A stretch of 49,855 nt of DNA, from positions 1 to 49,855 of the IMG/VR virus record IMGVR_UViG_3300027708_000102; one strand, 5' to 3'. Positions 9,043 through 23,308 of this stretch are shown piece by piece. The notes below the pieces were generated by a model. That model was not told where the DNA came from. It ran no database searches and saw only the letters and a list, made by a program, of their open reading frames with translations. Within the stretch, counting starts at the first letter, position 1. Each line of letters starts with the position of its first letter. This DNA comes from a virus. Made by a program: the position numbers and the translations under genes.

Positions 9043-9494
9043 CAACGGGTCCTCTTGGTCTTGGTTTTGGGCTTAGTGATATATATGTCACTTTCAGTAA
9101 GGATCCTGAAGGTCATTCCGTTCTTCTTACAATAGGTCATTGCCGCTGCCCATTTAGCTGTGTTGAGTATGAGGCTTACCTTGTCTCGCTTGCTCTTGGC
9201 ATTCTCAACCATGGCTTCCTTGGCAGGTTTGACTTCTACTATCTCTGCTCGCCTCTTGCCATTCTTGTCTTGGTATAGTATCATGAAATCTGGCACATAT
9301 TGGCTGGGTTTGCCGGTTAGAGGATTTGTATAGGGTATGCGTATGCTCTCACTGGCCCACTGTATCACACTGGGGTGGCTGTCAAGAAAGTTCATCACAG
9401 TCAGTTCCCAGCTGCTACGGAACGTGACTTCCTGCTTGCCTATCAGCTTTGCTGGATTCTTCGGTATGAATCGCCCTTGGCTGTACTTAGACAT
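9042..9494 (-). CDS. 4: gp4 head completion protein
   Basis: A 150-residue protein matching T4 gp4 (gp50/65 in older naming) in length and motifs: FRSSWELTVMNFLDSHPSVI, QWASESIRIPYTNP, then VPDFMILY and IVEVKP. Glu30, Asp69 and the EVK triad at 87-89 fit the TnsA/PD-(D/E)xK nuclease-like fold. In T4, gp4 acts after packaging so that heads can join tails. The end is very basic (KPKTKTKRTR). Its start lies inside the end of the radical SAM gene upstream (8-base overlap), and its stop overlaps the gp16 start. Confidence 0.88.
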   Translation of the reverse strand: MSKYSQGRFIPKNPAKLIGKQEVTFRSSWELTVMNFLDSHPSVIQWASESIRIPYTNPLTGKPSQYVPDFMILYQDKNGKRRAEIVEVKPAKEAMVENAKSKRDKVSLILNTAKWAAAMTYCKKNGMTFRILTESDIYITKPKTKTKRTR

Positions 9495-10656
9495 TGCTAT
9501 AACCTTCTAGACATGCAGATAATTCTGGATTGATCATTTTCAAAGATGTCCTTCTCAGGGAATCCAACCTATCATTGTATTCGCTGAACATGCTGAGCCA
9601 CACCGGAAGCGGTATGGTAGCTGGCATGCTTAGATGATTAGTTATAGCCGATATCACAGACTTGTGACGCGGGTAGTCAGCAGATCTACGTGTATATGAA
9701 TCTATCAGTGCTTGTTTATAGACAGTGGGTAGATTGCGTGCGTCTAACATGGGCGGATGCTTACACAGTATCACAGAAAGCTTGCTGATGTGAGGGTTGA
9801 GTTCGCTATCTACCCAGTCTAAGAGGTCTAACATAGCATGTGCGTTATACAAGCTGAAGACTGAGGTTATTTTTGCCTTCACGCGAGCATTTTTCGCACA
9901 AATATCTCGTAGATTCTTGGTCACAGCCGAAACCCTATCCCAGGTACTGTCGGATCTTATGTAATCATTCAGCTGACCAAACGCGTCTATGCTACAGTCT
10001 ATCTTAACTTCGCGCAGCACAGAGAAGTATGACTGCATCTCCTCGTTCAGGTCATGAGTCATGTTGCTGCTCATGTGCAGCTGTAAGCGAGAAATATTTC
10101 CGTGATTAGCAACTTGAATCAATGCTTCTATTATGCGTGCTTGATGCATCATTGGTTCACCACCGAGGAACTGTAGTCTCTCTGTGTTCTTAGCAGTTTC
10201 TGCAGACAGATACCATCCAGATTCTCGCAAACCTACCGATAGCTGTCCAAGGGATATAGCATCTGATAGCCAACTAGTCGAACTGGTTTGATTACATGAT
10301 CTACATTTGATATTACAGATGTTGTTCAGATTTACATCCTGGCTCATCAACGTTGGTTCTGCGGAAAAATCCACACCTATGAGATCTGCAAGCTCGAATG
10401 ACCATGTCCTATGGCTGTAACCCTTGACCTGCTCATTGAACTCGCAGGTTTTACAATAGCGATGTCCTTGACCCTGCTTGAATTGTTGCCGTAGATTTTC
10501 CATGTAATCTGTATGGATGTACCCATCAATATCACATTCGGGAACACTATCCGGCCATTTGCAGCAGGGTTTTAACTGGCCATCGGTTTCAATACGACCG
10601 TGAAACCAAGGAAAAGCACAGTAAGGTCTGTTAGCTGTTTGAGATGGCTGCTGCAA
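9487..10656 (-). CDS. radical SAM protein with N-terminal twitch-like Cys cluster
   Basis: A 389-residue radical SAM enzyme. CNIKCRSC (Cys114, Cys118, Cys121) is the CX3CX2C site for the SAM-binding 4Fe-4S cluster, and GGEP lies at 165-168. Cys13 (in YCAFPW), Cys31/32 and the Cys68-X2-Cys71 pair form an N-terminal twitch-like set that could hold an auxiliary cluster. Proteins of this kind occur in aquatic phages; their substrate is unknown. The only start that keeps the N-terminal cysteines is a TTG at 10656, within the last codons of the upstream gene (26-base overlap). It overlaps gp4 downstream by 8 bases. It is separate from the other three radical SAM genes but shares N-terminal architecture with two of them. 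Confidence 0.88.
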   Translation of the reverse strand: MQQPSQTANRPYCAFPWFHGRIETDGQLKPCCKWPDSVPECDIDGYIHTDYMENLRQQFKQGQGHRYCKTCEFNEQVKGYSHRTWSFELADLIGVDFSAEPTLMSQDVNLNNICNIKCRSCNQTSSTSWLSDAISLGQLSVGLRESGWYLSAETAKNTERLQFLGGEPMMHQARIIEALIQVANHGNISRLQLHMSSNMTHDLNEEMQSYFSVLREVKIDCSIDAFGQLNDYIRSDSTWDRVSAVTKNLRDICAKNARVKAKITSVFSLYNAHAMLDLLDWVDSELNPHISKLSVILCKHPPMLDARNLPTVYKQALIDSYTRRSADYPRHKSVISAITNHLSMPATIPLPVWLSMFSEYNDRLDSLRRTSLKMINPELSACLEGYSNV

Positions 10657-12912: not shown

Positions 12913-13509
12913 TTAACCTGCTTGTGGACCGCTACCGCTAGCACGTACACGGCTTGGCATGATGTCTTGATCCTGCGTTGCGTTATCGTAGCGCACAGTC
13001 AGCGTGATCATCATCGATTCGCTGTTGCTATAGTCAAAGCTGTCATAGGCCACAGTCTCGAGATAGCAGCCTTCGAGATACCAGTTCTCGAGAACCCCAC
13101 TGTCTGATCCATCTAAAGTTTCAATCTGAGTAGCAAACTTGTAGTTGATACCAGCAAGGAATGAAGTCTGTGTAAAGTGGTTCATCTGCTTCTGCAGCTG
13201 ATACGATGTCAGGTAGCTTACGCTGTTTGTAACATCATCGCGTACAGTGATTTCAATGCTCTGCCATTCTGGTTTCTGAGCCACATACATCACGTTGTTG
13301 TAGCTGTGGATCGGTGTGCTGTTGTGTTGGATGCTGGGGCGTCCGCAGGTTGCTACCTGTGTGGTTAACGCGATAGCTGCATTCGGTGGTCCAAAACCCT
13401 GCATGCTCACCCTGAAGCGATATTTCAGCTTCGGCATGAGGATGCCACGCCCTGTGGTTCCTAATTGGGTCGGTACACCAAAACTCTGCAAGGTTGGGGT
13501 AAAGGCCAT
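12913..13509 (-). CDS. 19: gp19 tail tube protein
   Basis: A 198-residue tail tube subunit of the T4 gp19 family (163 in T4), which stacks as rings inside the sheath and conducts DNA. Diagnostic stretches are PKLKYRFRVSMQGFG, CGRPSIQHNSTPIHSYNN, KPEWQSIEITVRDDVTN, YKFATQIETLDGSD and MITLTVRYDNATQ. It has its own TATAAATA late promoter 25 bases upstream, an AGGAG site before the ATG and a strong terminator after it, as expected for a highly expressed virion protein. The radical SAM chain separates it from gp18. Confidence 0.93.
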   Translation of the reverse strand: MAFTPTLQSFGVPTQLGTTGRGILMPKLKYRFRVSMQGFGPPNAAIALTTQVATCGRPSIQHNSTPIHSYNNVMYVAQKPEWQSIEITVRDDVTNSVSYLTSYQLQKQMNHFTQTSFLAGINYKFATQIETLDGSDSGVLENWYLEGCYLETVAYDSFDYSNSESMMITLTVRYDNATQDQDIMPSRVRASGSGPQAG

Positions 13510-13533: not shown

Positions 13534-13541
13534 TATTTATA
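13534..13541 (-). promoter_or_regulatory. late promoter TATAAATA of gp19
   Basis: Perfect T4 late promoter consensus on the minus strand, 24 bases ahead of the gp19 start and in the gap after the last radical SAM gene. Confidence 0.85.
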
Positions 13542-13566: not shown

Positions 13567-14694
13567 TCAGATCAGCTTGCGGCTCTTTGGTATCTTGCTG
13601 TCTGCGCTGCTCACACAGGCGCTGCTAATGCAGGGCATTGGACCATCAAATAGCTTGAATCCGGTCTCAATGTAACCAAGTGGTTTATCGGCGCAACTAT
13701 AGCTGCGCTTTATAGCTCCATCAGGCTCGCGTATGATGATACTACGAAACCCACTTTCGCAATCCCAGCCATTGAATTGATTGAAATTGAAAGCATTGAA
13801 TCGTTCAGCCTGGTCCATGTACCATTTCTTGCCAGTATCGTCTTCAAATTCTACCTGCATGATCTGCGGTACTGATGCGTCATCGCCGTTTGACACACTC
13901 ATCTTTGCCATGCTGATCTTGGGCTTTGGCCGCTCTACCTTGGATTTAACCGTGGTAAAATCGCGCTGCGGCATGCCGTTGTGCAGTGTAGCAAGCTGAT
14001 CCTTGGTATATCCTTCTACTACCTTGCTGGCAGTTGGATCGCTCTGTGGTTTTAGTGTTACGTTGATACCGCGACCCAGGAAGTATTCTGCTTCAGCATA
14101 GAGAGTATCAAACCATTCTGGCACCATGACGGTGTTCACGGTTACCTGTATGTCGTTCTCCTGCAGGAAAACCAGTTTGTCAGCAAACTTCTCTGTGTGA
14201 CCTTTGAGATCACCTTGCTTGATCCCCTGTTCTCGATGCCAGCTAGCCGTCACGCTCACACGGTGCAGATCTTTGGTAGCATCAACGTATTTCTCGAACC
14301 AACGCAGCCCTTGGCTGATATTTGAAGTCATGTGCACGCTCTGATAGTTGCAGTTAGCAGTATCTTGGCTATAGTGCTCTAGCAGTCTTAGATAATCAGG
14401 ATATACAGTCGGTTCGCCTCCGCTGAAACTGAAATGAAAGCTATTGTAACCTCGTTCTCTGCTCTGTCGCTTGATCTCATCCATGGTCATGAGGTTAAGC
14501 TCTATGGGACGATAATCTTTGGTGTTGCTGCGTGCGTATGGCCAGCAGTAGCTGCAGTTGTAGTTGCAGTATCGACCAATCAACCAGCTCACGCAGAATA
14601 TATCACGATATAGCAGGGTACGCTGACCAAATCTGGTTATCTTGTCGAATGGTATCTTGGTGAAATCATAGGAGCTAACCGCATCATTTGCCAT
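13567..14694 (-). CDS. radical SAM protein with C-terminal Cys cluster
   Basis: A 375-residue radical SAM enzyme. CNYNCSYC (Cys43, Cys47, Cys50) is the CX3CX2C cluster site and SGGEPT lies at 91-96. Further cysteines near the C-terminus (WDCESGF, SYSCADKPLG, MPCISSACVSS) form a SPASM- or twitch-like group that may hold a second Fe-S cluster. It lacks the N-terminal WCP-PW motif of its neighbours, so the layout differs: one auxiliary group at the end rather than the start. It is the last gene of a five-gene overlapping chain (its start overlaps the SDR-like gene by 11 bases). SPASM-type enzymes often modify peptides or proteins; the substrate here is unknown. Confidence 0.9.
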   Translation of the reverse strand: MANDAVSSYDFTKIPFDKITRFGQRTLLYRDIFCVSWLIGRYCNYNCSYCWPYARSNTKDYRPIELNLMTMDEIKRQSRERGYNSFHFSFSGGEPTVYPDYLRLLEHYSQDTANCNYQSVHMTSNISQGLRWFEKYVDATKDLHRVSVTASWHREQGIKQGDLKGHTEKFADKLVFLQENDIQVTVNTVMVPEWFDTLYAEAEYFLGRGINVTLKPQSDPTASKVVEGYTKDQLATLHNGMPQRDFTTVKSKVERPKPKISMAKMSVSNGDDASVPQIMQVEFEDDTGKKWYMDQAERFNAFNFNQFNGWDCESGFRSIIIREPDGAIKRSYSCADKPLGYIETGFKLFDGPMPCISSACVSSADSKIPKSRKLI

Positions 14695-15244
14695 TTACGT
14701 TCTCCTGTATGGGATCTATGCTTAGCTCGTTTATGTTTAGGTTAGCAGGTTGGTCAACCATCCATTTCACATACTGTGCCGCTTGATCAAGCTCCATGCA
14801 GGTCCTCGAAGGATGCTTGTGCTGCACGTTACTAAGCGAGCCCACGCTCAGCAATGACACCTTGGGTCCACCTCCCCAGGTGCTCAATAATCCAAGGCTG
14901 TTGCAGAAATCTCGCAGTGATTTCTTTTCATGTTGATAGGTCCAATCGCTGCCTTTTGAAGTGCGATCCGCGGTGCTACCAATGCTAATGATATGCAGCT
15001 GATGTTTGTGATCTCGAGCAACTGCGTAGACTTCTCGGAGCAGCAGCGTCTGTTGAAACTGCCACAACGCACTGTTATTGATGAAAACATCGTATTCCAG
15101 TGCCAGCTGTGCTAGATCCCTGCGTCGTTGATCTTTATCTAGATCCCAGCCATTTGCTCTACTAACGAAGCTAGCATCTGGCCAAATGCCGTGCATTGAC
15201 TGTGCTAAACCCTTAGTTGGATTACCAGTAATCAATATCTTCAT
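14684..15244 (-). CDS. short-chain dehydrogenase-like protein
   Basis: A 186-residue Rossmann-fold protein. The N-terminus MKILITGNPTKGLA fits the dinucleotide-binding strand and glycine-rich turn, with one residue more than the usual TGxxxGxG. FINNSA at about 55-59 corresponds to the NNAG motif, and Ser90 (IISIGS) with Tyr103-X3-Lys107 gives the Ser-Tyr-Lys triad of short-chain dehydrogenases/reductases. It is shorter than typical SDRs (about 250), so the substrate-binding part is reduced. It overlaps the upstream radical SAM gene by 4 bases (ATGA) and the downstream one by 11, implying coupled translation. A reductase or epimerase acting with the neighbours is plausible; the substrate is unknown. 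Confidence 0.72.
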   Translation of the reverse strand: MKILITGNPTKGLAQSMHGIWPDASFVSRANGWDLDKDQRRRDLAQLALEYDVFINNSALWQFQQTLLLREVYAVARDHKHQLHIISIGSTADRTSKGSDWTYQHEKKSLRDFCNSLGLLSTWGGGPKVSLLSVGSLSNVQHKHPSRTCMELDQAAQYVKWMVDQPANLNINELSIDPIQENVNGK

Positions 15245-16557
15245 AGGTAACCCTCCATCTCTGGTACCACATCTACTAATTTCTGCGATCTAATAGCATC
15301 CATCTTGGCTGTGAATGATACAAAAATATTCCAATGAGCCTCATGTAGATCCCCACTGGTCATGTATTCGATCACGCTACTGCAGATGTTCTTGCTGCTA
15401 GACACCACGTTCTCAGGAAAACCCTGATCCACCACCCAATCATGGAAGTCATTGAATCTATTGGTCACTAGGTCTTTGAGATCTTGTGGCAGCACCCTTA
15501 TGTTGAGATGTTTGGGGTGATGTGCTACATGATGCGTCACGATTGGTTTCTTGATGGTGTTATTGAACTTGTTGAGACCGCTCTGTCCAAGCTTCCATCT
15601 CATGAAATCTGGCATGTGCAGCACGTTGTAGGCAGTCACGGTGTAAGCGAACCAGGCCTGGACGTTTTCAGGGGCTTCGTCGACCCTGTATATGTTTCGC
15701 AAAACCTTGCTCCAATCTGACGGATATCTTTGATATTCCTGCATAGCACCGTATCCATCTATGCTAGCTCCTATCTGTATGGTCTTGAAATGAGTCCACA
15801 GATCGAGCACTCTGCTTGGTATGCTGGTCATGTTGGTGTTATATTCAACTACCATGTTGCCAGCTGCTCCATTCTCTATGCAGCGTTCTAGGAATTCATA
15901 GTGTCGCTCTATCAGCAGAGGTTCGCCTCCTGCCATGTAGACATGCTGCACGTTGCCAGCATTGGCTTCGATCTGCTGCCAGAAACTCTCGCTGTTGTGC
16001 CATCCATAGCTGTTGCTTATCCATTTGCCATTTGAGCGATGCATATGCTCGCGACCGTGCGTGTCGTTGAACCAGTCAACATCATACAGCTTGTTCCAGT
16101 CATCATACCAACCAGTGCTGTCCTGAGGTCCGCACATGCGGCATGCCAAGTTGCAGAGGTTTCCAAATCGTAGATCATAATATACCACAGGCAACGCTTC
16201 TGTATCGATGCTGCCATCTTCTGCGGTATGGGCTAACATTTTAGTACGCTGGTTCTTCCATCTATATGTCTCATATTTCCGACGGCTATCTAAGCCAGCG
16301 TCTTCCTCGCTCTTGCACCTGCCACATTCCTCGCTCCATATGCCCTGCATCATGTTCTTTCGCATGCCTATCAACAAAGCGCTGTTGCGAGCAGAGACCA
16401 GTTCGTCAGATGCTGCGTTATAGGGTGTACCATCTGGTTTGCGAATCACGCCCTTGTTCTGCGTGATGTTGGCCTGGCAACATACCCTGAGATCGCCGTT
16501 GCTCCTCACTGCTTGAAAGTTCCAGGGAATAGGGCACCACGTGTCTGACTTGCTCAT
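15241..16557 (-). CDS. radical SAM protein, N-terminal twitch type
   Basis: A 438-residue radical SAM enzyme. Cys8 (TWCPIPW), Cys26/27 and Cys78-X2-Cys81 form an N-terminal auxiliary cluster set; CNLACRMC (Cys135, Cys139, Cys142) is the SAM cluster and GGEP lies at 210-213. The protein encoded at 17450-18814 has its CX3CX2C at the same residue numbers, so the two are clear paralogues. It overlaps its neighbours by 4 bases on both sides. The reaction and substrate are unknown; auxiliary-cluster enzymes of this kind include peptide and protein modifiers. Confidence 0.9.
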   Translation of the reverse strand: MSKSDTWCPIPWNFQAVRSNGDLRVCCQANITQNKGVIRKPDGTPYNAASDELVSARNSALLIGMRKNMMQGIWSEECGRCKSEEDAGLDSRRKYETYRWKNQRTKMLAHTAEDGSIDTEALPVVYYDLRFGNLCNLACRMCGPQDSTGWYDDWNKLYDVDWFNDTHGREHMHRSNGKWISNSYGWHNSESFWQQIEANAGNVQHVYMAGGEPLLIERHYEFLERCIENGAAGNMVVEYNTNMTSIPSRVLDLWTHFKTIQIGASIDGYGAMQEYQRYPSDWSKVLRNIYRVDEAPENVQAWFAYTVTAYNVLHMPDFMRWKLGQSGLNKFNNTIKKPIVTHHVAHHPKHLNIRVLPQDLKDLVTNRFNDFHDWVVDQGFPENVVSSSKNICSSVIEYMTSGDLHEAHWNIFVSFTAKMDAIRSQKLVDVVPEMEGYL

Positions 16558-17453
16558 ATCCTGCCCTGCTTCCTGGCCTTGACAAGTCCGCGTATGCCCA
16601 ATCGGTTGTGATCACCGACGGCAAAATCATTCCATTCTGGTCCACCGAGAGCAATGTGCATGCACTTGGTAGGCGTGATACCAACTTCGGCACAGACTTC
16701 AATCTGCGATTGCCTATATTTGGCAGGAATGAAATCAGGCGTTTTCAATTCCTGCATGAAGTATATGCCAACCTTGGCAGCTCCGAGCACTGTGTGATTG
16801 TATCTGTTCTGCTGGCATATTGGCAGATCATCGTCAATGTTGCTGTAACGAATGCCACTGCGTATGTGTCCTGTACCTGTGCCTTTGGTAAGACTAAAGC
16901 TAACGCTCTCTATAGCTGGGTGATCCACGCTCAGTTGAACATCCACACAGGTGCCTATGTATGCGCAGTCAACTATGACCGGAACCTTGAGATCTGCGCA
17001 TCTGTCCAGCATGGCATAGAATCCCTGCGGTACATCCCCTGTTGTCGCATGAGGTACGCTGACTATGACATAGTCGCCCTGCTCTATCGGACCGTCCTCT
17101 ATGTGCTTCCAATCCTTAACGATGCGTGCGTGATAGGCATATTCACCTCGATACATGCGCAAACGCCTAGAAGCGTGTCGGTGGTAAGCTTCATCAAAGC
17201 TCTGAGTGGTACCATTTATCAGATGATGCTGTTTGAAACGTTCAAGCCCTATAACCTTACTAAGACGCATGTTTCCAAGGTAGAGCTTATAGGTATCTAG
17301 ATATTCTAACCTGCAATCTAATGGATCGCCGCCATCCTGGAACCATTCTTGCCACGGCAGTGATTTGAAAAGATCCACGAACCGTACGTCATAAACAGCA
17401 GCAGTCTTCTTGCTGATCATGCCGCTATCTACTAGTGATTGCTTGTCCATCAT
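16554..17453 (-). CDS. PLP-dependent aminotransferase-like protein
   Basis: A 299-residue fold-type-I PLP enzyme by motif. Asp162 in VPVIVDCAYIG is placed to bind the PLP ring nitrogen, Lys190 in SFSLTKGTGTGHIRSG is the likely Schiff-base lysine, and Arg198 follows with the usual spacing. PHATTGDVPQG at 134-144 sits where class I enzymes have NPTG, here altered. It is shorter than typical class I/II aminotransferases (about 390), so the small C-terminal domain appears reduced. It lies between the two paralogous radical SAM genes with 4-base overlaps (ATGA) at both ends. Transamination of a residue or small molecule acted on by the neighbours is an inference. Confidence 0.72.
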   Translation of the reverse strand: MMDKQSLVDSGMISKKTAAVYDVRFVDLFKSLPWQEWFQDGGDPLDCRLEYLDTYKLYLGNMRLSKVIGLERFKQHHLINGTTQSFDEAYHRHASRRLRMYRGEYAYHARIVKDWKHIEDGPIEQGDYVIVSVPHATTGDVPQGFYAMLDRCADLKVPVIVDCAYIGTCVDVQLSVDHPAIESVSFSLTKGTGTGHIRSGIRYSNIDDDLPICQQNRYNHTVLGAAKVGIYFMQELKTPDFIPAKYRQSQIEVCAEVGITPTKCMHIALGGPEWNDFAVGDHNRLGIRGLVKARKQGRI

Positions 17454-18814
17454 CTGTTAGTATCCTTTATCACGTCATAGAATTCTGGCAGGCTATCCTG
17501 CATGCTCTCAGATCGTATTTTATCCAACCTATCAGTGAATCTCCAAAACTTAGGCATGAGCTCTGCCTGATCCGCAGCTAGCATAAAACGTTGCCACTGA
17601 TCGAGATGCTGCGTGATACCAGCTATCAGCTCATCTCGGCGAGCATGATCATCGTCATAGAGTTCGCAAGCAAGCTTGATCAGCTCAGGCAATCTGCGGG
17701 CAAAATGCTCTACTACTTTCTGTTTTTCTGCCGGTGGCAAGGTTCTCGCATTTAGATGCTTTGGTCCATACAGAGGATGAAAGAATATCAGCGGACTGTT
17801 TGGTGTGAAACCAAACCTCTTGTACTTTCGGCGCATGAACCATTCCAGAGTGTCAGGTATGTACCAGATGTTGTATATCATGATCGTGCTGGCGATCCAG
17901 ACCACAAAATTGATATCTGTGGCAGAATCTATCCTATCTAGGTTCTCTTCGATCATGTGCCATCGGCAGGGGTGTCGTATGTAGTCATTGACCGGTCCAA
18001 TGCCGTCAACGCTGGCTCCGATCCTAACTTCTCTAAAATGCCGCCACAGATCCCAGGCCACCGGTGGTATCTTTACTACGTTGCTGTTGTATTCGATGAT
18101 GATGTTCTTGCTGATACCCATATCGATGCAGCGTTCGAGGAACTCCCACTGTTGATCAATGAGCATGGGTTCGCCACCAACTGTGTGTATGTGCTGTATG
18201 TTTTTGGCATTCCTAGAGATGTGATCCCAGAACAGAGGTGACTCATACCAAGTGTAACCATCTGTGTCTGGTACTAATCTGCCACTATCATCTCTTGACA
18301 GTGTTACCTTTCCAAAGCTTTCATCATATTGGTGAGTGTTCCACAGGGCTACATAGTCTTCGTACCAAAAATTGCTTTCTGTTGGGCTGCACATCCTGCA
18401 TTTCAGGTTACACTTGTTGCCAAATCTCACTCCGTAGTGCATGACTGGGCAAGACTCATTGGATATCTGTCCATCATCACAGGTCAGCTGCTTGGCCATA
18501 TCAACAGTGAACCTATCAGACCACAGCGTGGTTTCTGTCTGGTTCCTGCTTATCAAACCACCTTTGCTTTCATTCTCGCAGCGTCTACAAGCCGGATTCC
18601 ATCGGCCTGCCAGCATGTCCAAACGTATCTGCCGCAGTAAGGAGCTGTTGCGAGCATCTTCTATCATGTCTAACGTGGCGTTGAAGGTGCTACCGTTTGA
18701 TTTGCGTAAGAGCCCATTATCAGCACCCTGCTGGCTATGCGAGCACACGCGCATGTCTCCGTTATTGCGGATATCTAGGCTGATCCAAGGCAGTGGGCAC
18801 CAATTACATGACAT
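17450..18814 (-). CDS. radical SAM protein, N-terminal twitch type (paralogue)
   Basis: A 454-residue paralogue of the protein encoded at 15241-16557. Cys6 (NWCPLPW), Cys24 and Cys76-X2-Cys79 form the N-terminal auxiliary set; CNLKCRMC (Cys135, Cys139, Cys142) binds the SAM cluster, and GGEP lies at 213-216. Shared stretches include RFGNxCNLxCRMC and a segment VDxxGxxxxYxR(H/Y)P. A TG-A-TATACT extended -10-like sequence (18828-18820) lies just before the ATG, but no matching -35 is seen. The gene follows the 96-residue protein by 35 bases and starts the overlapping chain. Confidence 0.9.
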   Translation of the reverse strand: MSCNWCPLPWISLDIRNNGDMRVCSHSQQGADNGLLRKSNGSTFNATLDMIEDARNSSLLRQIRLDMLAGRWNPACRRCENESKGGLISRNQTETTLWSDRFTVDMAKQLTCDDGQISNESCPVMHYGVRFGNKCNLKCRMCSPTESNFWYEDYVALWNTHQYDESFGKVTLSRDDSGRLVPDTDGYTWYESPLFWDHISRNAKNIQHIHTVGGEPMLIDQQWEFLERCIDMGISKNIIIEYNSNVVKIPPVAWDLWRHFREVRIGASVDGIGPVNDYIRHPCRWHMIEENLDRIDSATDINFVVWIASTIMIYNIWYIPDTLEWFMRRKYKRFGFTPNSPLIFFHPLYGPKHLNARTLPPAEKQKVVEHFARRLPELIKLACELYDDDHARRDELIAGITQHLDQWQRFMLAADQAELMPKFWRFTDRLDKIRSESMQDSLPEFYDVIKDTNR

Positions 18815-18849
18815 GTGCTAGTATATCACAGCTACTGGCTGCTCCATAA

Positions 18850-19140
18850 TCAAGCGTGGCCAATATGCCCATAGACTTCAATGTCAGTGAGCTTGCTCAC
18901 CTCAGTGATCTGGTCCTTTATCAACCGATTTACCAGCTTTAGATTCTGCTTTCTGCTGGCAGGATCTAACTGACCAATGATGTGTCCTAGATTCAAGCTC
19001 AGCACTGTGAGCAGGATCTCATTGGCCAGCTCTGAGCTCGTATCTGTTTCCAGCTTGCTATGCATTCCAGCTAGATAGGTGTATAGGGCCGCGCTGATAT
19101 CATTCTTGAAAGAGTCAGCAATCTTATCTTGATCAGTCAT
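18850..19140 (-). CDS. small helical protein heading the radical SAM cassette
   Basis: A 96-residue, mostly helical protein (LYTYLAGMHSKLETD, ANEILLTVLSLNLGHII, LKLVNRLIKDQITEV) ending HIGHA, with no cysteine and no family I recognise. A TTAAATA box (19146-19152) ends five bases before its ATG, and there is no Shine-Dalgarno. It lies between the gp18 terminator and the first radical SAM gene. It may be a partner or substrate of the enzymes or an unrelated small tail protein; no leader/core peptide pattern is visible. Confidence 0.65.
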   Translation of the reverse strand: MTDQDKIADSFKNDISAALYTYLAGMHSKLETDTSSELANEILLTVLSLNLGHIIGQLDPASRKQNLKLVNRLIKDQITEVSKLTDIEVYGHIGHA

Positions 19141-19219: not shown

Positions 19220-22200
19220 TTATACGTTGATGTTGTTGCTACCGTTTGGTAGCGGATCTGCGTCATTCAACACCCTGATTGGTATGTAGATGAACTCGAT
19301 CGCCTTTTCTGGCTTGATAGCTATATCAACCCAAAGCTCGTTGCGATCGATCCTAATCGGTGTGTTGTTGCTGCTATCGCACACGACTGAGAAGTCGTAG
19401 AGCGCACGCAATCCAACCAAGTTACCCATGAAGCTGTTAAACGCTATGGTAACTGCCTGCCTGGTCTGAGCGTCGTTTGGCTCAAACAAGAACGGCTGTG
19501 CCAACTGCCTTAGGTTGTAAACCAAGTAGTTGATCAGGCGCGCAACATTGACTCTGTCCAGGCTTGTGGTGATTGGATCCAAGGTCTTCTGTCCATATAC
19601 AACCAAACCACGATTTGGTATGAACGTGATCGGATTGATCTTGTTCACATACAGCACGTCGCGCTGTCCTTGGTTTAGACTGACTGGCTGATATGTACCG
19701 TCTGACTTGAGGTAACCAACGCTCAATGCGCCAGCAACCAAACCACGATTGAAACCAGCTGGAGCAAACCAAGGATAAGCTACTTGGTCATTGTAAGCAT
19801 ATACCGTGAGTGCCATGGTGCTTGGCGGCACAAACACTTGGTTTCCGTCCAAGTTCACTTCCAGTGCCCAGGGATAGTAAACTGCTGCGTATGATGTGTG
19901 GGTTATCAAACCATCAATGCTGTCATAAGCTGCGTTGTTGGCATTGGTAGCCCACTGCTGCAGGCTAGTGGTATCAGCTGGTAGCTCTCCAGGAGGATCT
20001 GCTAGGATGAAAGCTATCTGTTGTATGTCAACATTGAGCAGGTTCATCTCAGCCAAGCATTCTATGTAACCCGGTGTTGCTATCAAGTTGTAGAAGATCG
20101 AATCACCGCGTATGGCTTGGTTGCTAGCAAGCGAAGCATTAAGCGCTCTAAAGACCATAGCACGCTGCGCATCTGGTCCCATGTAAGGGGTGCCATTTGG
20201 ACGGTTACCGCTAGCTGTGACCCAGCAATCCGGATCATAACCTTCAGAAGTGTTCACATCTGGGAAATAATCCATATAGTACTGCTTGACATTGTAGGTG
20301 CTATAACGAGTGTTGAACAGCAACATACCAGCTGGATAAAGCTCTGCGTTAGGCGCATCGCTATCCACATAGTTGCTGACTACCATCGCGCTAGGAGCTT
20401 GGCTGCCATTGGTCTTGCCATTGTTATTGTATCGCGCGTCAGTGAATATGATGCCCGAAGGACTGCTGTGATTGGTGTTATCGATCAGTGTCCATGATCC
20501 AGATGATCCATCGTAGCGGTATAGCACTGGATAGGGTGTCACGCTGCTGTCTACCCAGATGTCGTTGGTAACCAATGGACTAAGGTCGCTCTGTGTGCTA
20601 GGCATGCTGCCATCTATGATTGGACCATTTGGATCTGTAGCTGGATAGGCATTCCTATAACCCTGCCAGATCTGGCCGCTGCCGACCATAATATCAACCT
20701 GTAGGTAGGTGTTATACCATAGCGTACCGTCTGCCGGAGGTCCTACTGGATTGGTGGTGCTCGGTGTATACATCAGTGTTACCCAAGCAGAACCGTCCCA
20801 TTGATAAAGAACTGTCTTGGCCGTAGCAGGCATGTCGCCGTCATTGTTATAACGAGCATACACTGTACCGTAGGTCTTGCTAGAACCAAAAGCAGCATTG
20901 GCTACAGCATCGCTGCTGTACATAGGCACAGTGTTGGTCAGAGGATTGATATTCTGCTCCACCCATATCGTACCATTGTACTTCTTAACTACCATGTTAG
21001 CGCCGCGATCGGCTGGTGTGGTATTGATCCACACGTTGGTAGCAGCAGTCTGTGCCAGTGTGCTAGGTACTGTAAGAGATGGATAGTAACCCTGATAAAC
21101 CATCTGTCGTCCAAACACATAGCCAACTTGTATACCTGCGCTGTTAAGAGGAGTTCCGCTGATATCCTTCAGTATGAACTGTGTACCGTTTGTGTTGGTG
21201 ATTGTGAGATGGTTGCCAGTAGACACGCTAGCCACGATCGGACCACTTGGGAAAGCAGCATTGATAGCAGAGACCACACCAGCCAACGTGTTGTTAGGTG
21301 ATGCCGGCACGTAAATCGTGGTAGCTATTCCTGTGCCAGGATTGATGCTGAATGTGTCAGCAGTTAGATATGCCATGCTAACAGTGAATGTAGCGTTGGT
21401 GCCGCTGCCCCCGGTGACGCTCACCGGATTGGTAGGTGCCACCGTGTAGTTGCCAGGATTGGTCACGGTCACTGTGCCAACACCCCAGCCAATAGTCACT
21501 GTGGCATTAGTACCGTTGCCGCTGGTTGATGAAGGTGTCACAGGATTAGCTGGGACGTTGGTGATGTGCTGTCCGGGCTGTCGTATGGTCAAGGTAACAA
21601 TAGAGCCGCCGCCTCCGATGCTGGCCACTTCTAGTATGGTCGGAGTCACATAGGCTGGACCATCAAAAGTAAGCGTATCGCCTTGAGCATAACCAGTTCC
21701 AGTAGCAGATATGCTAGCCGCTACAGCCTGTATGCTAGCAACAGTCAGCACACCCGTTACGCTGTGGGTACCACCAACGACATTAAGCGTGTCTCCTGGT
21801 GCGTAACCAGCACCAGGCGCAACTACAACCGGCGCTGGCTGTGTTTGTCCTGCTATGTTGCCGTTTGATATCTCAAGCGTAGCAGCTGTGAATGTTGGAT
21901 TAGCCACAGTACCTGTCACTGCTCCATAGTAAGTCTGCGTGGTTGGCATACCTGCAGTCTGCCATGGGTGTGTGGTATTTGTTTCTGTGGTTATGTCATG
22001 GAAGAAAATGTCAGTAGCATCATAGTTGGTGATTACCAAGAAGTTGCTGCTACCAGAAGTGGCAATGCTAGCCAAGGCATTGAAACTATTGGCATCAAGA
22101 ACCGAATTGATCGAAGTTACAAAGCTGCTGAGAGAAGTTCCCGCCACAGTGATGGTCACAGGCACTGCATCACCAATGCTTATAGTGCATTGGTTGCCTA

Positions 22201-23308
22201 TAGTGAAGGTTGGATTGCTGACTGTGCCCTGCACCACACGCGGTGCTGCTTCGCGCCATCCCCAACCTGGATAATCCATGTCAGTGCTGCCAACCAAGAA
22301 CCACCAAGCGTCTGTGTTACCGTTAAGCGTGGTCTGTTCGATCTTCTGCCAGATCTTGTTCTCCATTAATTCGGTAGTCGGATCAGTGCTGTATGCATCA
22401 ACTATGAACTCACCAACTGTGCCGTAAGCATGTATTGGTAATATGGTGTTAGTTGGCTCCGGAGTCATAAATCCGATATCCTCTAACACGTATATGTTAG
22501 AATAAAGCAGATCAATCATCGTGGTGATATCAGTGCCGGTGATGCGTAGATAGTAGAGATCTTCTATCGTAGCTACTGTTGGATCAGGCTTGCCGGTGCG
22601 AGCATAGATCGTAGCGCTAATGCCAGAGTTATGTATGGCGTTGTTGTTGATAGCACTTGCTACATCACTGAGGCTCATGCCAACTGTCATGGGCACTGTA
22701 GTTCCATTAATCACCAAGTTACCAACATGAGTAACGGCAGGAGTGCTGGCACTGGTCAGTCCAACTGATGCCTGTACCATTATCTCGAGATCAGTTGACT
22801 CTGAAAGTGTCAACGGAGTCTTGGCGCTCCAGCTCAATGCGCTGTTAGCGTTCCCATTGCTGCTGAATATGCCCCAAGTGGTGTTTGCTGTGTCAAGCCA
22901 ATATTGGTTGAGTGAAGGAGGACCTGCTGGTTCAGTGGTGCTTGGCACCATCTGCTTTAGATCAACATCCGCACGCAATACATATGCAGTGTTTGCTATA
23001 CCGAGATATTGATATGCTGTGAACAGACCCAGCTCATTCAGCTGATTACCATAGTCAGGCGTGCCAGCGGTGGTGTAGAAGGTTGGAGTTCCAAACGTCT
23101 GCAGCAGATCACGTTGGCTGCTGATTAGATAAAGTTGGTTAGCATTAGCAGCAGTAGTACCGGGCGCGTAAACACCTGAGCTACCAGGTTGTAGCTTATT
23201 AGCTGCCGTAGCAATGAGAATGAGCGGGACGGTTCCAGCACCTGCGCTAGCATATACGCTTTCATCTGTGACTGTGACGCTTACGCCGGGTGATACTAGG
23301 GTTGCCAT
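19220..23308 (-). CDS. 18: gp18 tail sheath protein, greatly enlarged
   Basis: A 1362-residue contractile sheath subunit, about twice T4 gp18 (659). The start (ATLVSPGVSVTVTDESVYAS) and the C-terminal domain (RDVLYVNKINPITFIPNRGL, VNVARLINYLVYNLRQL, QPFLFEPNDAQTRQ) are typical sheath. Roughly residues 130-1000 are mostly added modules: three units like a flagellin hook IN motif (near 195-235, 373-428, 650-705), two GxGYAxGDTL repeats (499-507 and 537-545), two Gly/Thr repeats ending GTNATxTV, and several WYN/WVD-type beta repeats. These probably project outward and decorate the tail. A GATAAATA late box precedes the gene and a hairpin terminator follows it. Confidence 0.92.
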   Translation of the reverse strand: MATLVSPGVSVTVTDESVYASAGAGTVPLILIATAANKLQPGSSGVYAPGTTAANANQLYLISSQRDLLQTFGTPTFYTTAGTPDYGNQLNELGLFTAYQYLGIANTAYVLRADVDLKQMVPSTTEPAGPPSLNQYWLDTANTTWGIFSSNGNANSALSWSAKTPLTLSESTDLEIMVQASVGLTSASTPAVTHVGNLVINGTTVPMTVGMSLSDVASAINNNAIHNSGISATIYARTGKPDPTVATIEDLYYLRITGTDITTMIDLLYSNIYVLEDIGFMTPEPTNTILPIHAYGTVGEFIVDAYSTDPTTELMENKIWQKIEQTTLNGNTDAWWFLVGSTDMDYPGWGWREAAPRVVQGTVSNPTFTIGNQCTISIGDAVPVTITVAGTSLSSFVTSINSVLDANSFNALASIATSGSSNFLVITNYDATDIFFHDITTETNTTHPWQTAGMPTTQTYYGAVTGTVANPTFTAATLEISNGNIAGQTQPAPVVVAPGAGYAPGDTLNVVGGTHSVTGVLTVASIQAVAASISATGTGYAQGDTLTFDGPAYVTPTILEVASIGGGGSIVTLTIRQPGQHITNVPANPVTPSSTSGNGTNATVTIGWGVGTVTVTNPGNYTVAPTNPVSVTGGSGTNATFTVSMAYLTADTFSINPGTGIATTIYVPASPNNTLAGVVSAINAAFPSGPIVASVSTGNHLTITNTNGTQFILKDISGTPLNSAGIQVGYVFGRQMVYQGYYPSLTVPSTLAQTAATNVWINTTPADRGANMVVKKYNGTIWVEQNINPLTNTVPMYSSDAVANAAFGSSKTYGTVYARYNNDGDMPATAKTVLYQWDGSAWVTLMYTPSTTNPVGPPADGTLWYNTYLQVDIMVGSGQIWQGYRNAYPATDPNGPIIDGSMPSTQSDLSPLVTNDIWVDSSVTPYPVLYRYDGSSGSWTLIDNTNHSSPSGIIFTDARYNNNGKTNGSQAPSAMVVSNYVDSDAPNAELYPAGMLLFNTRYSTYNVKQYYMDYFPDVNTSEGYDPDCWVTASGNRPNGTPYMGPDAQRAMVFRALNASLASNQAIRGDSIFYNLIATPGYIECLAEMNLLNVDIQQIAFILADPPGELPADTTSLQQWATNANNAAYDSIDGLITHTSYAAVYYPWALEVNLDGNQVFVPPSTMALTVYAYNDQVAYPWFAPAGFNRGLVAGALSVGYLKSDGTYQPVSLNQGQRDVLYVNKINPITFIPNRGLVVYGQKTLDPITTSLDRVNVARLINYLVYNLRQLAQPFLFEPNDAQTRQAVTIAFNSFMGNLVGLRALYDFSVVCDSSNNTPIRIDRNELWVDIAIKPEKAIEFIYIPIRVLNDADPLPNGSNNINV

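Follow-up and report, generated by a model that had tools for sequence, protein, structure and literature searches.

A set of five gene families, comprising the radical SAM enzyme rS5, two further radical SAM families (NTwA and rSAMb), a glycosyltransferase-like family (GT77) and a methyltransferase-like family (f43), recurs both in phages and in chromosomes of the Bdellovibrionota type. The window analysed here, the whole 49,855-nucleotide stretch of IMG/VR record IMGVR_UViG_3300027708_000102, comes from a large uncultivated water phage, and in it rS5 is the last gene of an overlapping five-gene chain lying between the tail sheath and tail tube genes (Table 1). The best reading of this arrangement is a radical-SAM-tailored glycosylation of a tail or surface protein, with rS5 as the part of the core present in the window; both substrate and product are what we infer from sequence. 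The chain may accordingly be one module of a larger, late-expressed system that modifies a tail protein (in bacteria, a surface protein), which we put forward tentatively, as a serious possibility rather than a probability.

The gene chain between tail sheath and tail tube

A preceding sequence-only reading had described five overlapping genes of the radical SAM, PLP and SDR types inserted between gp18 and gp19, and had taken them to be tightly coupled. The open reading frames, their minus-strand orientation and their successive overlaps of 4, 4, 4 and 11 bases in the transcription order rS1, PLP, rS3, SDR and rS5 are confirmed, the overlaps bear out the coupling, and profile matches to PHROGs fix the site between sheath and tube. 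The small ORF sm96, although inside the interval given in that reading, lies outside the chain, with a 35-base gap to it and no overlap. Relatives of sm96 are found after the sheath with 41-71% identity, and searches of Pfam and PHROGs gave nothing better than E 0.01 for it. The same chain is carried by a second locus (L023) with protein identities of 64-91%, saturated synonymous sites and no stops, and it is therefore beyond chance.

Table 1. Features of the chain, its flanks and a second radical SAM site in the window
Feature	Position	Strand	Basis
rS1, N-terminal-twitch radical SAM enzyme (N_Twi_rSAM)	17450..18814	-	NF033640, PF04055, Cys motifs
PLP, short fold-type-I PLP enzyme, class I aminotransferase-like	16554..17453	-	profile against PDB, residues
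rS3, N-terminal-twitch radical SAM enzyme	15241..16557	-	NF033640, AF2 model, structural neighbours
SDR, short (186 aa) short-chain dehydrogenase-like protein	14684..15244	-	profile against PDB, Y-x3-K
rS5, radical SAM enzyme of the core; auxiliary set of four Cys near the C-terminus	13567..14694	-	PF04055, conservation, AF2
sm96, small ORF (96 aa) in the sheath-cassette interval, role unassigned	18850..19140	-	kept in near relatives
gp18, tail sheath, upstream neighbour	19220..23308	-	phrog_10581, E 1e-238
gp19, tail tube, downstream neighbour	12913..13509	-	phrog_4542, E 3e-52
Late-type motif GATAAATA	38 nt before gp18 start	-	motif scan
TATAAATA, exact match to T4-type late promoter motif	13534..13541	-	32 nt before gp19, in gap after rS5
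rS4, fourth N_Twi radical SAM gene, second site in tail/neck module	9487..10656	-	NF033640, 215 bits

The exact form of the T4-type late promoter motif, to which TATAAATA was matched, occurs four times in the window against 0.85 expected (one of 100 shuffles reached four), and late-type motifs stand before both gp18 and gp19. A 120-nt margin around the cassette genes holds no late-type motif with fewer than two mismatches, and gp18 is the probable source of late read-through into the cassette. Late expression, as the sequence-only reading had expected, is thus probable for the cassette in the window lineage. General promoter and terminator scans of the window returned 31 matches against 24.5 (sd 5.5) in shuffles and 10 against 11.2, respectively, too near to the shuffled values to inform.

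Enzyme identities and candidate substrates

Three genes of the chain, rS1, rS3 and rS5, combine the CX3CX2C motif with scores of 30.2, 41.8 and 52.1 bits against PF04055 (cut-off 29.5 bits), rS1 scoring 41.8 and rS5 52 bits. Both rS1 (326 bits) and rS3 (377 bits), together with rS4 and the NTwA copies in L155 and G001, also exceed the 170-bit cut-off of NF033640, a model of twitch domain-containing radical SAM proteins that names no substrate and that finds between 4 and 23 matches in each virus record analysed, some below cut-off. rS4 falls under the PF04055 cut-off; its copy number differs among relatives, and it is perhaps an accessory member. In the N_Twi alignment A4, which includes rS4, seven cysteines, four of them N-terminal, are present in 30 of 30 rows. 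The rS5 alignment A3 (59 rows, mean column identity 72%) keeps CX3CX2C and four further cysteines (C312, C334, C355 and C360) throughout, a predicted set that points to an auxiliary Fe-S site.

The labels of the two remaining enzymes are weak from single sequences but hold with family profiles. PLP alone reaches E 0.095 against Pfam (PF00155 at 12.3 bits, under the gathering cut-off of 19.7), while its profile A1 finds aminotransferases among PDB sequences at E 5e-6. For SDR, a single-sequence NCBIfam match at E 0.004, under cut-off, gives way to E 6e-11 against SDRs when profile A2 is compared with PDB sequences. In PLP, D162 and K190 are present in 30 of 30 rows and R198 in 28, and we take these to be the pyridine-nitrogen Asp, the Schiff-base Lys and the phosphate-binding Arg; in SDR, G7 and the Y-x3-K pair Y103 and K107 occur in 37 of 37 rows. 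The earlier reading had named a lack of SAM- or PLP-binding residues as evidence against a pathway; in the family alignments the Cys motifs, D162 and K190 are kept, and the predicted catalytic positions of the radical SAM, PLP and SDR proteins are conserved.

Structural comparison of AF2 models (pLDDT 86.7 for rS5 and 92.0 for rS3) places rS3 closest to anSMEcpe, a sactipeptide enzyme (5wgg), SkfB and BlsE, with Z of 11-12. The rS5 model lies at Z of 16.8 from BlsE, 16.3 from viperin, 15.8 from SkfB, 15.7 from EpeE and 15.5 from MoaA, values too close together to allow a choice of substrate. Viperin, BlsE, MoaA and SPASM-type enzymes share with rS5 the fold and an extra Cys set, but rS5 fails the curated cut-offs of two of them: it is rejected as viperin (42 bits against 180 for NF038283) and as MoaA (31.5 bits against 284 for TIGR02666), and it passes no curated cut-off among the best 25 of 53 NCBIfam models.

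These neighbours bear on two alternatives. One is a hypermodification of nucleotides or DNA, or a viperin-like modified nucleotide directed against the host or rival phages. Viperin is the nearest match of rS5 both by profile against PDB (E 4e-4) and by Foldseek, the structurally close BlsE and MoaA act on nucleotide substrates, and ThyX or ThyA adjoins some clusters; a title on DNA-modifying phage glycosyltransferases also appears among the references of PMC12619734. Against this, peptide maturases come within about one Z unit of viperin, the viperin score is far under its cut-off, and chromosomal copies of the core argue against a role in phage DNA, so that we give the nucleotide reading little chance. 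Tet_JBP has no match in 28 records, but controls were equally silent and this carries little weight.

The other, for which we allow slightly less still and which we consider very improbable, is a ribosomal peptide (RiPP) pathway through SPASM/twitch-type maturases, to which the auxiliary Cys sets and structural neighbours such as anSMEcpe, SkfB, SuiB, EpeE and other peptide enzymes would be suited. The clusters around rS5 leave hardly any space in which a precursor peptide could be encoded: 13 candidates were found in 495 gaps at 75 distinct rS5 loci, counted with ORFs taken from their earliest start, a choice that makes gaps smaller. L076 and L114 weakly share one short ORF in the vicinity of rS5, and the near copies L049 and L050 share another, but none is more widely common, and no RiPP maturase model scores above cut-off among the models listed.

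Recurrence and variability of the core

Relatives of rS5 (tblastn, E 1e-3 or better) occur in at least 598 of 600 pattern-matched viral stretches. Cultured relatives offer far less: among 50,697 phage records tblastn gave no match at 1e-5 for rS1 or rS5 and none at 1e-3 for GT77, three weak matches for NTwA and one, at 23%, for PLP. Vibrio phage K566 is a distant relative in culture, and three of its radical SAM genes are grouped closely. In the rS5 tree, 15 bacterial rows form one group (85/82, non-starred branch) apart from the viruses, so that no recent host-to-phage transfer is seen, a possibility set aside here on a midpoint-rooted tree with long outgroup branches. In the phylum of G047, rS5 is present in one of 398; this one is the centre of the search, and its copy is nested in the virus clade.

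The single five-gene pathway proposed from the window stands in part. Coupling and intact enzymes speak for it, but a closed five-gene unit is rejected because the content varies and the core partners lie elsewhere. The scatter that the sequence-only reading had named as a counter-indication is partly present: rS5 is found with or without the other four chain genes, which vary among relatives, and in the 216-kb record G001, which has the same chain, the other four core families are found at a distance of 68-77 kb. Close relatives have distant paralogs in place of PLP and rS1, with PLP on the opposite strand, and among 75 distinct loci (one locus per contig) there are 22 in which an SDR immediately precedes rS5. 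Placement between sheath and tube is the habit of one lineage. Tube matches were obtained in 13 of 41 virus records, the other 28 being uninformative. In nine of the 13 the tube follows rS5 downstream by no more than about 14.4 kb, and in G013 (a sister of that lineage), G020, G026 and G033 it is more than 100 kb from rS5 along the record.

Such variation of content and order is what would be expected if the site were a modular hotspot for auxiliary genes with no relation to one another, in which every radical SAM, PLP or SDR gene had a minor job of its own and any pathway went no further than a pair like SDR-rS5 or rS1-PLP; the cluster site differs by lineage, and one locus (L043) has just PLP-rS5 at the sheath-tube place. 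We nevertheless regard a hotspot as distinctly unlikely, since gene overlap inside rS5 clusters is near-complete (median gap -4) and the five core families occur together in 19 of 28 viral records and again in bacterial chromosomes.

The 28 records were chosen for having rS5; NTwA is present in 21, rSAMb in 19, and GT77 and f43 in 20 each, the last two counted with profiles built partly from the same records. In 13 of the 19 full-core records, with G032 placed by hand, the core falls within about 25 kb, and in six it does not (G001, G011, G013, G020, G036 and G039). Part of the core is absent from nine, including four records of more than 120 kb (G005, G031, G033 and G038) which are linear and may be fragments.

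In G001 the core is split, with rS5 in the sheath-tube gap beside SDR, rS3, PLP and rS1, and the other families behind a fibre-type gene and FFN. The order of this second locus is FFN-p131-GTx1-GTx2-p185-GT77x4-f43x2-rSAMb-NTwA, directly behind baseplate-wedge genes, the gene for a 3,701-aa virion protein and the fibre-type gene. The run FFN-p131-GTx1-GTx2 occurs in eight viral records, and in seven of them a fibre-type gene lies directly upstream of FFN (four by PHROGs, three by eye); the eighth region begins at FFN. Seven of 15 viral regions showed no FFN (L177, L180, L182, L183, L186, L189 and L190). Of these, L180 belongs to G013, whose FFN sits in L181; L179 begins inside p131.

FFN has relatives in 11 Pseudomonas jumbo phage records. 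The match in PA5oct is gp360 (26% identity over 74% of the query), a hypothetical protein annotated with ESI-MS/MS. Its gene is lined up with those of a virion structural protein and of a long tail fibre subunit that carry the same annotation, which we read as marking virion proteins.

The names of GT77, GTx1, GTx2 and f43 rest on motifs and weak matches, and the glycosyltransferase label is accordingly putative. An Asp-Gly-Asp motif is invariant or nearly so in 12 rows of GT77, and two copies match GT2-type Pfam models at E 0.003-0.09, under cut-off, with none for other copies. Neither GT77 nor f43 has a match in PHROGs, and their profiles found none in PDB, the best for GT77 being an unrelated chain at 0.17. 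Classical GT2 genes were sought beside the phage clusters and rejected as partners: they occur in 5 of 18 viral records, none near rS5.

Proposed decoration of tail or surface proteins

The position of the other half of the system behind tail-fibre genes, together with its occurrence in predatory-type bacterial chromosomes, makes decoration of a tail or surface protein the likeliest function. The suggestion in the sequence-only reading that a virion protein is a plausible target gains from the same placement of the other core genes directly behind fibre-type genes. In the scheme we favour, GTx1, GTx2 and GT77 would attach a sugar to FFN or to a fibre next to it and f43 would methylate. The three core radical SAM enzymes could introduce C-H-activated changes, for which oxidation, dehydration, epimerisation and C-C bonds are candidates, either into this sugar or into the protein. 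At the same substituent SDR and PLP might exchange carbonyl, hydroxyl and amino groups for one another. Accessory radical SAM, PLP, SDR, PP-loop and hydroxylase genes, swapped between phages, may give each its own decoration, which could alter host recognition or protect the fibre. The fullest form of this proposal, a modular radical-SAM assembly line placing lineage-specific C-H-functionalised decorations on an FFN-family protein of the tail-fibre region, with the same core decorating a Bdellovibrionota-type surface protein, we consider possible but doubtful. If true, phages would be changing their own adhesion proteins through radical reactions, and virion modification would gain a new layer with a bearing on host recognition, defence and the ecology of uncultivated T4-like phages of lakes and oceans, and the large radical SAM family NF033640 would gain a substrate.

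A rather unlikely alternative is that the enzymes remodel the host surface, not the virion, adding an unusual sugar or lipid substituent to host LPS or capsule, for example in superinfection exclusion. In several Bdellovibrionota-type chromosomes the core does lie beside nucleotide-sugar, GT2 and O-acyltransferase genes: rS5 occurs together with nucleotide-sugar, acyltransferase or GT2 genes in 6 of 16 chromosomal regions hand-picked for testing (L156, L159, L160, L162/L112, L165/L113 and L166). The pelagimyophage host-recognition island likewise carries radical SAM cassettes with glycosyltransferases, in an island shared with tail fibres (PMC7029224). In the viruses, however, GT2 genes are rare and distant from rS5, the run begins with FFN in eight records, behind fibre-type genes where visible, and expression in the window lineage is probably late.

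Several phage systems resemble parts of the proposed fibre decoration. The Pelagibacter phage Mosig EXVC030M has, by annotation, aminotransferase, hydroxylase and carbamoyltransferase genes adjoining fibre genes, but its PLP relative is only 23% identical to that of the window phage and it has no rS5 match. Glycosylation of mycobacteriophage virions was reportedly studied by Freeman et al. in 2023. According to the available text of PMC12619734, sugars are placed on mycobacteriophage virion proteins, at the C-termini of capsid and tail-tube proteins, and that text does not mention radical SAM tailoring. The earlier statement that no such phage pathway is known needs qualification, since marine phages of the T4-like type, to which the window phage also belongs, were reported in 2017 to carry many radical SAM genes, one environmental genome of 183 kb having 12 (PMC5332604). 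The part of that paper available to us treats the phages as users of Fe-S clusters and describes neither the core set nor its gene order, bacterial counterpart or target. The statement does hold for the core: in the open-licence literature, with most subscription papers outside the search, we found no description of the five families and no precedent for several radical SAM enzymes tailoring a virion.

If the proposal is true, the core held in common with Bdellovibrionota-type bacteria would make the question testable in cells. All five families recur in such chromosomes, and the FFN-GTx1-GTx2 block occurs there once, in the same order, in the single stretch L161/L191, which reads NTwA, GT77, rS5, FFN, p119, GTx1, GTx2, p163 and GT77. 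By eye, this stretch adjoins pheS/pheT-like ORFs.

The chain between sheath and tube

The window is one virus record of 49,855 bases. An overlapping five-gene chain between gp18 and gp19 was claimed by the sequence-only reading, and the ORF coordinates confirm it, with successive overlaps of 4, 4, 4 and 11 bases from rS1 through PLP, rS3 and SDR to rS5. Alignment rows of relatives show that the catalytic residues of the cassette enzymes are kept, and in the listed 25 of 53 NCBIfam models rS5 stays below each curated cut-off. Between the window and L023, a relative with the same chain, synonymous sites are saturated with dN of only 0.075 (rS5) up to 0.295 (rS1), indicating purifying selection on the cassette genes.

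Features of the cassette and its surroundings in the window
Feature	Position	Strand	Remarks
gp18, tail sheath	19220-23308	-	upstream of cassette
sm96, 96-aa ORF	between gp18 and rS1	-	position of the ORF
rS1	17450-18814	-	over cut-offs of PF04055 and NF033640
PLP	16554-17453	-	second cassette gene
rS3	15241-16557	-	over cut-offs of PF04055 and NF033640
SDR	14684-15244	-	fourth cassette gene
rS5	13567-14694	-	over PF04055 cut-off
gp19, tail tube	12913-13509	-	downstream of cassette
rS4, fourth N_Twi gene	9487-10656		between tail gene and head-closure gene

The window contains four exact copies of the T4-type late motif TATAAATA, against 0.85 expected. One copy falls in the 57 bases that separate rS5 from gp19; GATAAATA sits 38 nt upstream of gp18. 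The best matches at most 120 nt from sm96 and rS5 have two mismatches, and those of rS1, PLP, rS3 and SDR three to four. Five relatives were tried for a motif upstream of gp19, and CATAAATA is found there in all three that gave an answer (L024, L031 and L038, the first two being alike at that site). Judged by motif placement, the cassette is likely to be expressed by late read-through out of gp18.

At 1,362 aa, the sheath protein may contain an extra middle part, its profile match being split into two stretches. The rS4 site holds two copies in the relatives L030 and L032 and none in L040.

rS5 clusters and a wider core in viruses

At least 598 of 600 pattern-matched stretches of the viral collection encode an rS5 relative (tblastn, E 1e-3 or better), and the best 80 of these loci were taken further; 50,697 phage records gave zero rS5 matches at 1e-5. 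Mean column identity in the rS5 alignment (59 rows) is 72%. Neighbours were counted around 75 distinct rS5 sequences, with a single locus taken from each contig and, for the most part, 8 kb of flank on each side; five of the loci come from MAGs, none identical to viral ones. An N_Twi gene lies near rS5 at 67 of the 75 loci, SDR at 42 (directly upstream in 22), an rSAMb-family gene and a PP-loop (QueC-like) gene at 29 each, an Asp_Arg_Hydrox-type gene at 24 and PLP at 23; gene content and order vary across relatives. Tight coupling is general across these clusters, since neighbouring genes have a median spacing of -4 and no more than 30 bases separate them in 434 of 495 gaps, values which the use of earliest-start ORFs pushes down. 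Matches to NF033640 occur at 4 to 23 places per virus record (18 records, E 0.001 or better), not all over the cut-off, with weak matches possible for any radical SAM protein (14 controls).

Of 41 virus records, 13 yielded a tube gene. In nine of these, each from the window's lineage, it follows rS5 downstream by no more than about 14.4 kb; in G013, G020, G026 and G033 the two are over 100 kb apart along the record. In a 457-kb virus just PLP (55%) and rS5 (69%) occupy the cassette site, overlapping (L043:7087-9098) and by eye behind a ThyX-like ORF; this rS5 groups in the tree as sister of the window lineage. The rS5 loci L076 and L114 weakly share a short ORF nearby, the sole hint in the sequences of a small peptide gene.

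Five core families were traced in 28 large or informative picks from the 41 rS5-bearing virus records, among them two apparent near copies (G040 and G042). Relatives of the NTwA of L155 occur in 21 (20 at 56-68%, one at 39%) and of rSAMb in 19 (44-57%); the profiles for GT77 and f43, for which some of the sequences came from these same records, each match 20 (the f43 match in G005 is weak). All five families are present in 19 records, within about 25 kb in 13 and spread wider in six. In G001, a 216-kb record with the same chain as the window at 99-100%, the remaining core genes form a single run 68-77 kb from rS5. This run begins with a baseplate wedge (phrog_43, phrog_10646), a 3,701-aa virion protein (phrog_10938), a 198-aa protein without known function and a fibre-type protein (phrog_19602, E 1.5e-11; its two best matches are without function), and continues with FFN, p131, GTx1, GTx2 and p185, then four GT77-like and two f43-like genes, rSAMb and NTwA. 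The block FFN-p131-GTx1-GTx2 is seen in eight viral records.

The bacterial counterpart

Scanned by pattern, the species-genome collection yielded eight MAG loci, five titled Bdellovibrionales or Bacteriovoracaceae. By profile search, rS5 is present in 17 of 290 genomes of the Bdellovibrionota-type phylum, five of which (G044, G045, G046, G145 and G205) are MAGs from that scan, and in one of 398 genomes of another phylum, namely the search centre itself. At least two copies are chromosomal, because their contigs span 1.6 and 0.94 Mb; the remaining contigs are short. Across 16 bacterial regions, one spanning just 5.3 kb, NTwA relatives (45-58%) occur in 14, rSAMb relatives (at least 43%) in 12, and GT77 and f43 in eight each. 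Counterparts of the rS1-PLP pair are found in L156 and L160 (40% and 46-48%).

In a 91-row rS5 tree, 15 bacterial copies form a single group (85/82) separate from the viruses. The rS5 contigs of two MAGs titled Rickettsiales and Gammaproteobacteria (L110 and L114) nest within the virus clade and are probably viral contigs binned with bacteria. One chromosomal region of Bdellovibrionota type (L161/L191) holds NTwA, GT77, rS5, FFN, p119, GTx1, GTx2, p163 and GT77 side by side, and its proteins match those of G001: FFN at 29% (4e-28), p119 at 33% (4e-24), GTx1 at 33% (4e-48), GTx2 at 1.6e-83 (phmmer) and p163 weakly (4e-05). p131 (e.g. L172:993-1385), of 115-131 aa and without clear family, adjoins FFN in the eight viral records and in L161, and is perhaps a fibre chaperone.

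Possible function and parallels

The gene neighbourhoods point to a tail-region protein as the target of sugar transfer and tailoring. Members of the radical SAM superfamily abstract hydrogen by means of a 5'-deoxyadenosyl radical, and the enzymes here would act in this way either on that sugar or on the protein itself, with SDR and PLP oxidising and transaminating the same group and the putative glycosyltransferases transferring sugar to the candidate tail-region substrate. Structure models support the radical SAM assignment, and the structural neighbours of the modelled proteins include peptide-acting as well as nucleotide-acting enzymes. Modification of a tail-region virion protein is the most likely function, to which we give somewhat less than an even chance. 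The interpretation in the sequence-only reading, a single pathway with a plausible virion target, is supported in part, as to conserved residues and the plausibility of the target, and enlarged beyond its five genes to a set of variable content and order.

No published description naming the five-family core was found in the openly licensed literature. Published work describes 12 radical SAM genes in one marine T4-like genome (2017; PMC5332604), a pelagimyophage island with radical SAM cassettes (2020; PMC7029224), phage samples from the Tasman Sea enriched in radical SAM (PMC7150976) and virion glycosylation in mycobacteriophages (PMC12619734).

FFN relatives at 26-27% are present in 11 Pseudomonas jumbo phage records; in PA5oct the match falls within gp360, a hypothetical protein beside a virion structural protein, gp359, and a long tail fibre subunit, gp358; all three are annotated ESI-MS/MS. 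Pelagibacter phage Mosig EXVC030M (L008) carries three MoaA-like genes, aminotransferases, hydroxylases, a desaturase and a carbamoyltransferase near tail-fibre genes, a cluster parallel to the cassette yet different from it. The jumbo Vibrio phage K566 (L175, 161548-165950) has a row of four genes of which three are annotated as radical SAM, and contains a distant N_Twi relative.
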